From Saccharomonospora cyanea NA-134 (lineage in GTDB: Bacteria; Actinomycetota; Actinomycetes; Mycobacteriales; Pseudonocardiaceae), in NCBI RefSeq assembly GCF_000244975.1, contig NZ_CM001440.1:4262325-4326324 (forward strand): a stretch of 64,000 bases of DNA, given 5' to 3'. Positions 22,470 through 31,087 of the stretch are shown one piece after another; position 1 is the stretch's first letter; the number at the start of each line of letters is the position of its first letter. Below the pieces are notes generated by a model. It was not told the origin of the DNA and made no database searches. It saw nothing but the letters and a program-made list of their open reading frames with translations. The position numbers were made by a program, and so were the translations under genes.

Positions 22470-23963
22470 CTACGCGGCGACGTCGGTGCGCTTGCGGATG
22501 AGTGGCGCCGCGGCCAGAAGCACGAGGCCGAGCACCGCGGTCCCGGTGCCCACGACGGCGAAGTAGCCCGCCGCCGAATCGGCGTCGTAGAACTTGACGA
22601 GCTGCGCCGCGATTCCCTGGCCCGCCGAGCCCGCCGTCAACCACAACCCCATGGTCTGCGTGGCGAACGCCGCCGGAGCCAGGCGCGCCGTCGCCGAGAG
22701 CCCGATCGGTGACAGGCACATCTCGCCCACCGTCACGATCGCGAGGCTGCCCACCAGCCACAGCGGGTGCGCCAGGCCCGCCTGCGCGGACGGCAGCACG
22801 AGCAGCACGTAGGACAGGCCGGCGATCACCAGCGCCACACCGAACTTGTGCGCGGTCGAGGGTGGCCGCGCCGAGGTGTCGAGTCGAAGCCACAGCACGG
22901 CGAACAGCGGCGTCAGCACGATCAGCACGAACGAACCGACCGACTGGAACCACGACGCCGGAACGGCGAAGCCGAAGGCGTCGAGGTCGGTGCTCTCGGC
23001 GGCGTACTGTGCGATCACCGTGGCTCCCTGCTCCTGGATCACCCAGAAGAAGACCGCCGCGACGAACAGGGGGACGTAGCCGCGGAGCCGGGCGCGCTCG
23101 GCCTCCGTCACCCGAGGGCTTCGCAGCATCACCGTGAAGTACGTGATCGGCAGGGCGATGGCGACCAGGCTGATCAGGTTGACGACACCACCCGCGGTCA
23201 GCACGCCCGTGACTGCGGAGCCGACCAGGCCGATCGCCACCAGGACGAACACGGAGACGACGGTGACCAACCGGCCTCGGGGCACCTCGGCCAACCGGAG
23301 CGGGTTCTTCGGCCGGTCGCTCGCCGCGCTCAGGTTGCGCTGGATGCCCAGGTAGACCACCAGCCCGATGGCCATGCCGAAGGCTGCCAGGCCGAACCCG
23401 AGGTGGTAGTCGTAGGTCTCGCCCACCGTGCCCACCACGAGCGGTGCCGCCACGGCGCCGACGCTGATGCCCATGTAGTAGATCGAGAATCCGGCGTCCC
23501 GGCGCGGGTCGTTCCCGCCGTAGAGGTCGCCGACGGACGACGAGATGGTGGGTTTCAACAGCCCCGTGCCCGCCGCGATGAGCACCATGGACACGAACAG
23601 CGCCGTGGCCCCGGCCGGCAGTGCGAGGCAGATGTGCCCGCACATGATGAGCACCCCGCCGAGCAGCGTCGACCTCCGGTCGCCGAGCAGCCGGTCACTG
23701 ACCCAACCGCCCACGATCGCCGCCATGTAGGTCGCCGACCCGTAGACCGCCACGAGCGAGCGGGCGGTGTCGGCGGGAATCCCGAGTCCGCCGTCCGCCA
23801 CCTGGTCGTACATGTAGTACAGGAGCAGCGCACGCATCCCGTAGTAGGAGAAACGCTCCCAGGCCTCCGCGAAGAACAGGCCCACGAGCCCACGCGGATG
23901 ACCGAAGAACTCCCGGTCCGAAGCGTGCCGCCGGGGATCCCGTGTCGAACTGCGAACGCCCAT
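22470..23963 (-). CDS. Proton-coupled oligopeptide transporter (POT/PTR family)
   Basis: This 497-residue major-facilitator protein has about 14 hydrophobic segments and the POT signature ExWERFSYYGMRALLLYYM near residues 30-48. The ExxERFxYY motif couples proton and peptide binding. It would import di- and tripeptides. The ATG at 23963 has a GGAGG-type site a few bases upstream. The downstream amidohydrolase shares its transcript, and an Lrp-family regulator is divergent upstream, so the trio looks like a peptide-scavenging unit. Confidence 0.92.
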   Translation of the reverse strand: MGVRSSTRDPRRHASDREFFGHPRGLVGLFFAEAWERFSYYGMRALLLYYMYDQVADGGLGIPADTARSLVAVYGSATYMAAIVGGWVSDRLLGDRRSTLLGGVLIMCGHICLALPAGATALFVSMVLIAAGTGLLKPTISSSVGDLYGGNDPRRDAGFSIYYMGISVGAVAAPLVVGTVGETYDYHLGFGLAAFGMAIGLVVYLGIQRNLSAASDRPKNPLRLAEVPRGRLVTVVSVFVLVAIGLVGSAVTGVLTAGGVVNLISLVAIALPITYFTVMLRSPRVTEAERARLRGYVPLFVAAVFFWVIQEQGATVIAQYAAESTDLDAFGFAVPASWFQSVGSFVLIVLTPLFAVLWLRLDTSARPPSTAHKFGVALVIAGLSYVLLVLPSAQAGLAHPLWLVGSLAIVTVGEMCLSPIGLSATARLAPAAFATQTMGLWLTAGSAGQGIAAQLVKFYDADSAAGYFAVVGTGTAVLGLVLLAAAPLIRKRTDVAA

Positions 23964-29448: not shown

Positions 29449-29925
29449 TCACCCCGCGATGGGGGCCACGGTCGCGGCTGTGAGCCCCACCAGGTCGTCG
29501 GGCGCGAGTTCGATCTCCAGGCCCCGGCGTCCTCCCGAGCAGAACACCGTGTCGAACCGCCGCGCGGAGACATCCACCACCACGGGAAGGCGAGTACGCT
29601 GCCCGAGCGGCGAAATCCCACCCAGCACGTAACCGGTCGCTCGCTGAGCGGCGCCGGTGTCGGCCATCTTCGCCTTCTTACCGCCCACCGCCGCAGCGAG
29701 CGCCTTGAGATTCAGCTGTCCGGTGACGGGCACCACCCCCACCGTCAGCTTGCCGTCGACCTCAGCCACCAACGTTTTGAACACCCGCTCTTCGGCAACC
29801 CCGAGAGCGGCCGCCGCCTCCACCCCGTACGACGACTCCCTGGGGTCGTGATCGTACGTATGGAGCGTGTGCGGGACCTTGCGCTTGGTCAACAACGCGG
29901 TTGCGGGTGTTCCCTTTCCAGCCAC
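29449..29925 (-). CDS. ybaK: Cys-tRNA(Pro)/Cys-tRNA(Cys) deacylase, YbaK family
   Basis: This 158-residue trans-editing protein hydrolyses mischarged tRNA. It has the family TPATALL start, a conserved Lys in [20 protein letters not shown], the [11 protein letters not shown] motif and [12 protein letters not shown] near the end. The GTG at 29925 gives the usual length; an open frame upstream to 30003 would run into the sigR promoter on the other strand. It is divergent from sigR. Confidence 0.92.
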
Positions 29926-29942
29926 ACCGCCGGATGGTAGCC

Positions 29943-29969
29943 GGGAATAACCCGCACCGGACGGACGTT
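29943..29969 (+). promoter_or_regulatory. Sigma-R (SigR/SigH) promoter upstream of sigR
   Basis: GGGAAT (29943-29948), exactly 18 bases, then GTT (29967-29969): a full match to the sigma-R/sigma-H consensus GGAAT-N18/19-GTT. It predicts autoregulation of sigR. An in-frame GTG at 29979 lies where such a transcript would begin. Confidence 0.85.
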
Positions 29970-30101
29970 GCACGGAACGTGCCGACAACGCTGACCACAC
30001 CATCGAACCGTCCCCGGGTCATCACCAGGAATCTGGACGGCACCCGGCCGGTTCGACACACCACGCGCCGTCAGGTCGGCGCCAACCGGGAAGGGAACGG
30101 T

Positions 30102-30752
30102 TTGCCGAGCACGCAGAGCCCTGTCGACATTCCAGAATCGATCGCTGAGCCCGATACGGACGCCGAACGGGAACTGGCCGAACGGTTCGAGCGCGAGGCC
30201 ATGCCGCTGGTCGACCAGCTCTACTCGGCGGCGATGCGGATGACGAGGAACCCGGCCGACGCCGAGGACCTGGTCCAGGAGACCTACCTCAAGGCGTACG
30301 CCGCCTTCTCGTCCTTCAAGCAGGGCACGAACCTCAAAGCCTGGATGTACCGCATCCTCACGAACACCTACATCAACGGATACCGGAAGCGGCAGCGGCA
30401 GCCCCTGCAGCAGCCCACCGAGGAGATCACCGACTGGCAGCTCGCGCAGGCGGAGAGCCACACCTCGACGGGGCTGCGGTCGGCCGAGGTCGAGGCGATG
30501 GACAAGCTGCCCGACACCGACGTGAAGGCCGCGTTGCAGCAGCTTCCGGAGGATTTCCGGCTCGCGGTGTACCTTGCCGACGTCGAGGGCTTCGCGTACA
30601 AAGAGATCGCCGAGATCATGAACACCCCCATCGGCACGGTGATGTCGCGCCTGCACCGTGGCCGTAGCCAGCTACGGAAGCTGCTTGCCGACGTCGCCAG
30701 GGAACGGGGCTTCATCCGTTCTGGGCAGCAGCGGGAGGTGGCGCGTCGATGA
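30102..30752 (+). CDS. sigR: ECF sigma factor SigR (SigH-type), thiol-oxidative stress
   Basis: This 216-residue ECF sigma factor has region 2 (about 35-105, with [13 protein letters not shown] and [17 protein letters not shown]) and region 4 (about 145-200, with [17 protein letters not shown] and [14 protein letters not shown]). It directs transcription of the thioredoxin and mycothiol response in Streptomyces (SigR) and mycobacteria (SigH). TTG 30102 has AAGGGA upstream and gives the usual length. The frame is open for a further 67 codons upstream, and GTG 29979, near the predicted sigma-R transcript start, would add 41 residues. The stop overlaps rsrA by ATGA. Confidence 0.94.
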
Positions 30753-31087
30753 CCATCCGCGACGAGTCGCACGAGCGCGAGCAGGTCAGCTGCGACGACG
30801 CTCTGGCGGAGATCTACATGCTGCTCGACAGGGAATGCACGCCCGAACGCGATGCGGAGCTACGGCGACACATCGAGGACTGCCCCCCCTGCCTCGAGGA
30901 GTACGGCATCGACGAGCAGATCAAGCAGCTGCTCGCCCGCAAGTGCGGAGGCGAGCACGCTCCCGCCGAGCTCAAGAGCAGGTTGAAGGCGTCGATCCGG
31001 AACACGGTCGCCGAGCGGTACGGCTGGACGATGGCCGAAACCGAGATACGGATCGAGCGGACGACCGAGCCACCGACGATCTCCTAG
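30749..31087 (+). CDS. rsrA: Mycothiol-system anti-sigma factor RsrA
   Basis: This 112-residue zinc-binding anti-sigma protein holds SigR until disulfide stress oxidises it. The ZAS motif HIEDCPPC (His-x3-Cys-x2-Cys) and the upstream Cys in VSCDDAL are the expected zinc/redox ligands. It overlaps sigR by four bases, so the pair is co-translated at a fixed ratio. A third Cys (RKCGG) sits between the motif and the C-terminal helix. Confidence 0.93.

Follow-up and report, generated by a model that had tools for sequence, protein, structure and literature searches.

In Saccharomonospora cyanea NA-134, the sigR gene probably has two translation starts: a leaderless start that would give a long SigR, and an internal start with a Shine-Dalgarno (SD) site that would give a short one, the long form being presumably short-lived by analogy with the SigR′ isoform of Streptomyces coelicolor. 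The locus was analysed in a window of 64 kb (the whole stretch of DNA, whose numbering is used below) and lies on its plus strand. A SigR-type, sigRp2-like promoter (29943–29969) consists of GGGAAT (29943–29948) and GTT (29967–29969) separated by 18 nt, and nine bases (29970–29978) separate the GTT from a GTG (29979–29981), the predicted leaderless start of the long form; the promoter, the gap and the in-frame GTG are at exactly the coordinates given in an earlier note on this DNA. From the GTG, a putative N-terminal extension of 41 codons (29979–30101) runs in frame into the short form of sigR (30102–30752), whose TTG start (30102–30104) lies 123 nt further 3′. No stop interrupts the frame between 29901 and the stop codon ending at 30752, and an SD-like GAAGGGA precedes the TTG at 30090–30096, both of which agree with what the note had described. 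The sigR product scored 354.9 bits against TIGR02947 (SigH_actino; cut-off 251.55), and the gene directly downstream, rsrA (30749–31087), which encodes the anti-sigma factor and overlaps the sigR stop in an ATGA, scored 97.8 bits against TIGR03988 (RsrA; cut-off 62.5).

The pattern GGGAAT-N18/19-GTT was matched twice in the window, versus 0.22 matches expected from shuffled sequences; the second match, also an exact GGGAAT-N18-GTT, is located on the minus strand at 22591–22617. No Rfam family matched positions 29700–30400 at E ≤ 1. Another SigR-like site within the extension (AGGAAT-N18-GGTT) was considered and dropped, as it was not conserved in the alignment of the genus. On the other side of the promoter, a divergent frame ending at 29925 contains a tRNA_edit domain. 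This tRNA_edit (YbaK-like) gene, on the minus strand, has a −10-like TACCAT (29939–29934) 8 nt before its GTG at 29925 and may be leaderless as well; its promoter region overlaps the SigR promoter of sigR. A TANNNT was found at the place matching the TACCAT in 8 of the 12 Saccharomonospora loci and was absent in the other four.

From the promoter, the start spacing, the maintained frame and the second start with its SD, all visible in the sequence, together with the S. coelicolor model, we infer the 5′ end of the message, production and instability of the protein and the source of the short-form mRNA in Saccharomonospora as follows. Oxidised RsrA would free SigR, which would then transcribe its own gene from GGGAAT-N18-GTT, and the autoregulated mRNA would begin at GTG 29979 itself or no more than about 2 nt away. 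Ribosomes would initiate at this codon without an SD and produce a SigR′-like protein with 41 extra, probably disordered residues, while TTG 30102 with its SD would provide the short form. If the long form behaves as S. coelicolor SigR′ does, it would be active yet short-lived and would produce a transient burst; its role as an unstable “timer” is modelled on that protein.

The case for the upstream start rests on its conservation in the family Pseudonocardiaceae. Matches were obtained in 119 of 120 genomes searched, of which 110 (five from Saccharomonospora itself) were analysed along with seven further members of the genus, resulting in a family set of 117 sigR loci (12 from Saccharomonospora and 105 from other genera). 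Nine matching genomes were left out, seven because a genome of the same genus was already in the set and two because their matches were partial. The promoter was chosen within 520 nt upstream using a score blind to start codons. An in-frame start followed the promoter GTT at all 117 loci, at +9 nt in 104 and at +10 nt in 13, the codon being GTG in 113 and ATG in four. The −35 element read GGGAAT at 75 loci, CGGAAT at 25, TGGAAT at eight, AGGAAT at seven and GGGAAC at two, with 18 nt between −35 and −10 in 109 cases and 19 nt in eight; a strict GGGAAT search missed three loci of the genus (L008, L011 and L012) in which the first −35 base differs, as does the spacing in L008. The sequence between GTT and start is variable (105 distinct spacers among the 117 loci). 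Because in-frame GTG or ATG codons make up 3.8% of the family extensions (355 of 9,292 codons), a start at exactly +9 or +10 would be expected by chance in only a few per cent of cases, bearing in mind that the loci are related and the counts are therefore not independent events.

Stops or frameshifts in the upstream frame of relatives, which the earlier note had regarded as telling against its reading, were not seen among the relatives checked: the 9,292 codons that lead from the upstream start to a conserved residue of sigR at the 117 loci contained no stop. The other two frames of the same stretch held 208 and 122 stops per 9,292 codons, and the 30 codons 5′ of the upstream start held 50 in 3,393. 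At this last, background rate, 41 codons would stay open about half the time, so the open frame in the S. cyanea genome alone is not significant; it is the comparison across 117 of 117 loci that backs the proposed combination of SigR-type promoter, leaderless in-frame GTG and extended frame.

The position of the start relative to the promoter, and the contrast in SD strength between the two starts, both bear on whether the long form is leaderless. Published excerpts of a sigma-H structure paper number the −10 element G−11 T−10 T−9 (PMC6411747). On this numbering, transcription would start (+1) at the ninth base after GTT, placing the GTG at about +2, not exactly at +1, which counts against the leaderless reading. 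Likely purine transcription starts are A 29977 or G 29979, and judging by the −10 element the stress-induced sigR mRNA would be expected to begin at 29977–29979. The calculated SD energy in S. cyanea was −3.6 kcal/mol for GTG 29979 and −7.0 kcal/mol for TTG 30102. Across the family, a value of −5.3 kcal/mol or lower was reached by the upstream start at six of 117 loci and by the best downstream in-frame start at all 117; the best out-of-frame start, with many starts tried, also reached −5.3 at 45 and 7 of 117 loci in the two control frames, and duplex energy alone is not a clean SD test. A stricter search for a purine-rich SD with a suitably spaced start found 113 loci in frame versus 0 and 3 in the other frames. 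Canonical short starts with an SD were present at all 117 loci, non-canonical starts (GTC etc.) being scored too; the short start was picked automatically by best SD and is probably wrong at a few loci (e.g. L108, L117, L122, L114, L171 and L190). GAAGGGA or a near variant was kept across the Saccharomonospora alignment. Given the spacing at 117 of 117 loci, the open frame, the SD contrast and the −10 numbering, a leaderless long SigR in S. cyanea is very likely.

In Actinobacteria, an average of 19.2% of genes are predicted to be leaderless (PMC3160421), and both Saccharopolyspora erythraea and S. coelicolor can use GUG to start a leaderless message (PMC9031893). The sigR arrangement resembles other leaderless mRNAs of Actinobacteria in having its start codon at the (here predicted) 5′ end without an SD; it differs in being tied to the autoregulatory promoter of an ECF sigma factor and to one of two isoforms. 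An extended SigR isoform is already known, and no description of a leaderless SigR′ was found in the parts of the open-licence PubMed Central literature that were available.

The short form could instead derive from an mRNA of its own, as in S. coelicolor, through a basal promoter, degenerate or cryptic, located within the extension or close to it. This is a possibility that we find doubtful in Saccharomonospora; it concerns the source of the short form and is compatible with a leaderless long form. S. coelicolor employs both sigRp1 and sigRp2 according to excerpts of PMC5472188, and a TANNNT box, which we read as a housekeeping −10 element (p1-like promoter), was found between the upstream start and the sigR body at 105 of the 117 family loci, 66 of them TATCCT, in a count made independently of the choice of short start. 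The box occurs at all 105 loci from other genera, and the loci lacking it are exactly the 12 from Saccharomonospora, which argues against a separate transcript there, while the near invariance of the short start and its SD across the genus argues for one. The 420 nt that precede the short start held no TANNNT at 11 of the 12 genus loci, L007 having one at −359, and neither a sigma-70-like promoter nor a terminator was matched at 29780–30180, although degenerate promoters can escape such scans. A separate basal promoter appears, from these comparisons, to have been lost in the genus. With the box missing from 12 of 12 loci, a basal short-form transcript would have no visible promoter, and the earlier proposal that basal transcripts serve TTG 30102 is not supported as it was put. 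Since the genus is without a p1-like box, the short form may arise from internal initiation on the leaderless mRNA.

The same box also provides information on the frame of the extension. TATCCT lies at 20 different distances from the upstream start (22 to 127 nt), and all 66 copies fall in the same codon phase. That phase is also shared by the box at each of the 97 loci that have just one TANNNT, and by 107 of the 113 boxes in total; occurrences of a control word, TNNNAT, were spread over the three phases as 24, 8 and 13. A phase-locked box at variable distance implies that length changes on both sides were mostly multiples of three, as would be expected if the extension is translated.

Constraint on the encoded residues is less pronounced. 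For 20 chosen close pairs (any pair of unequal length was skipped), pN/pS in the extension was 0.56 in the sigR frame versus 1.27 and 1.09 in the shifted forward frames, with the antisense frames of the same pairs giving 1.19, 0.59 and 1.26; over 37 overlapping pairs it was 0.63 in the extension versus 0.03 in the sigR body. This pN/pS signal is weak. Synonymous change was lower in the extension (160.5 over 1,421 sites, 0.11) than in the sigR body (532 over 3,066 sites, 0.17), and part of the constraint therefore acts on the DNA itself. Third-position GC was 0.74 in the extension versus 0.95 in the body, and R, S, A, G, T and P are abundant among the residues of the extension. Overall, the extension is probably translated and loosely constrained. 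Such loose constraint, together with extension lengths that vary in the family from 41 to 144 codons between start and anchor residue, would also fit a passive by-product, in which selection would keep the frame open from the mRNA 5′ end only to permit SD-less translation, and the extra residues would be idle. We consider this unlikely in view of the lower pN/pS than in the shifted frames, the Thr found as residue 3 at 85 of 117 loci, and the destabilising effect of the extension on the S. coelicolor protein described in excerpts of PMC5472188 and PMC4921905. That the GTG arose by chance within an untranslated leader of TTG 30102, to which the expected openness of 41 codons in about half of cases in a single GC-rich genome would lend itself, was rejected as highly improbable on the start position (117 of 117), the absence of stops in 9,292 codons and the phase-locked −10-like box.

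Outside the family, the predicted leaderless form is patchy. Among 80 loci from named organisms, some of them shared with the family set, three had no promoter above threshold and 20 had an in-frame RTG at +9 or +10; these 20 comprised 12 from Pseudonocardiales or nearby MAGs, five of five Geodermatophilaceae, Dactylosporangium, Gordonia hydrophobica and one MAG. In Micromonospora and relatives the start lies approximately 37–41 nt after GTT, often with a stop just before it, and at most Nocardia, Rhodococcus, Gordonia and Mycobacterium loci it lies elsewhere. A search of the class matched 145 of 148 genomes, from which 69 loci were analysed (29 best matches and 40 picked for family coverage), an uneven sample in which five loci had no promoter above threshold; one matching family (f23) was left out and another (f7) gave no match. 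In-frame RTG codons at +8 to +10 were present at 19 of the 64 scorable loci, in 18 of 33 families, as compared with about 3.7 per equal bin elsewhere and three out of frame at +8 to +10.

The best-known relative of this arrangement is that of S. coelicolor, where a SigR-dependent promoter gives rise to SigR′, a form with 55 or 58 extra residues, depending on the source, and a half-life of about 10 min (excerpts of PMC4921905 and PMC5472188). On the evidence of these excerpts, the two systems share an upstream SigR-dependent promoter, an extension in frame with the short form and a sigR-rsrA operon with an ATGA overlap. They differ in the start of the long form, which is an upstream ATG lying between two promoters in S. 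coelicolor and would be a GTG at the predicted 5′ end of the mRNA in S. cyanea; in that the short form starts at GTC with AGGAGGTG in the former and at TTG with GAAGGGA in the latter; and in that S. coelicolor has a p1, none being recognisable in Saccharomonospora. The SigH-RshA systems of mycobacteria and corynebacteria have an orthologous sigma factor and the same promoter type (excerpts of PMC6411747, PMC4803200 and PMC3489674). However, the mycobacterial, nocardial and Gordonia loci compared here are mostly without a start at +9 or +10, many having stops between promoter and gene. The suggestion that the timer is conserved outside Streptomyces finds support in the family as regards the arrangement in the DNA; its newness was overstated, as the title of Kim et al. 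2009 reportedly places an unstable SigR isoform “in actinomycetes”. The same work is cited for Clp-dependent stress regulation in M. smegmatis in an excerpt of PMC5515868.

Elsewhere in the S. cyanea genome, the pattern GGAAT-N18/19-GTT-N7-11-RTG had 16 matches versus three for a reversed control. ORFs of at least 60 codons started exactly at +9 after GTT in five of the 16, sigR included, and the remaining matches had ORFs at other offsets (e.g. +7, +8, +10, +12 and +15). One of the four non-sigR ORFs at +9 (L301, L310, L314 and L316) encodes a DUF427 protein, and the other three, judging by their sequences, appear to encode a DsbA-type oxidoreductase, a quinone oxidoreductase and a flavin oxidoreductase. 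These matches suggest that leaderless starts are common among SigR targets in S. cyanea. At L305, GGGAAT-N18-GTT lies inside a reading frame that presumably represents the end of nusA, with what may be infB downstream. The 1.5 kb upstream of clpP1P2 contained no SigR-type promoter, so a Clp feedback arm like that of Streptomyces is not evident in S. cyanea. Candidate SigR-type promoters do lie upstream of two Clp-ATPase genes, one clpB-like (L321) and one known from partial sequence (L319).

A GGGAAT-N19-CGTT also lies some 300 nt 5′ of the IF3_N domain of infC (L325). The infC frame reads ISSETRINER, with no canonical start codon evident at that point, and translation may begin at a non-canonical ATC, as it does in Streptomyces. 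In Streptomyces, infC is induced by SigR (excerpts of PMC5472188), and raised IF3 inhibits some leaderless mRNAs (excerpts of PMC9031893). It is conceivable, if rather improbable, that in Saccharomonospora a single autoregulated mRNA gives both isoforms through a translational choice, with leaderless initiation at GTG yielding the long form and SD-guided initiation at TTG yielding a short, stable one. Initiation-factor levels would then set the balance between the two, and SigR-induced IF3 would lower the long form. If true, this IF3 loop would act as a timer at the level of translation, either in addition to proteolysis or in its place.

In practical terms, the long protein would be absent from annotations that place the beginning of sigR at the internal start. 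More broadly, a two-start SigR design appears to be kept across a family, with the start of the long form at the predicted 5′ end of the mRNA, and this raises the question of whether a stress sigma factor chooses its own isoform by leaderless versus SD initiation. Saccharomonospora, where the basal promoter has apparently been lost, may be the simplest natural case.
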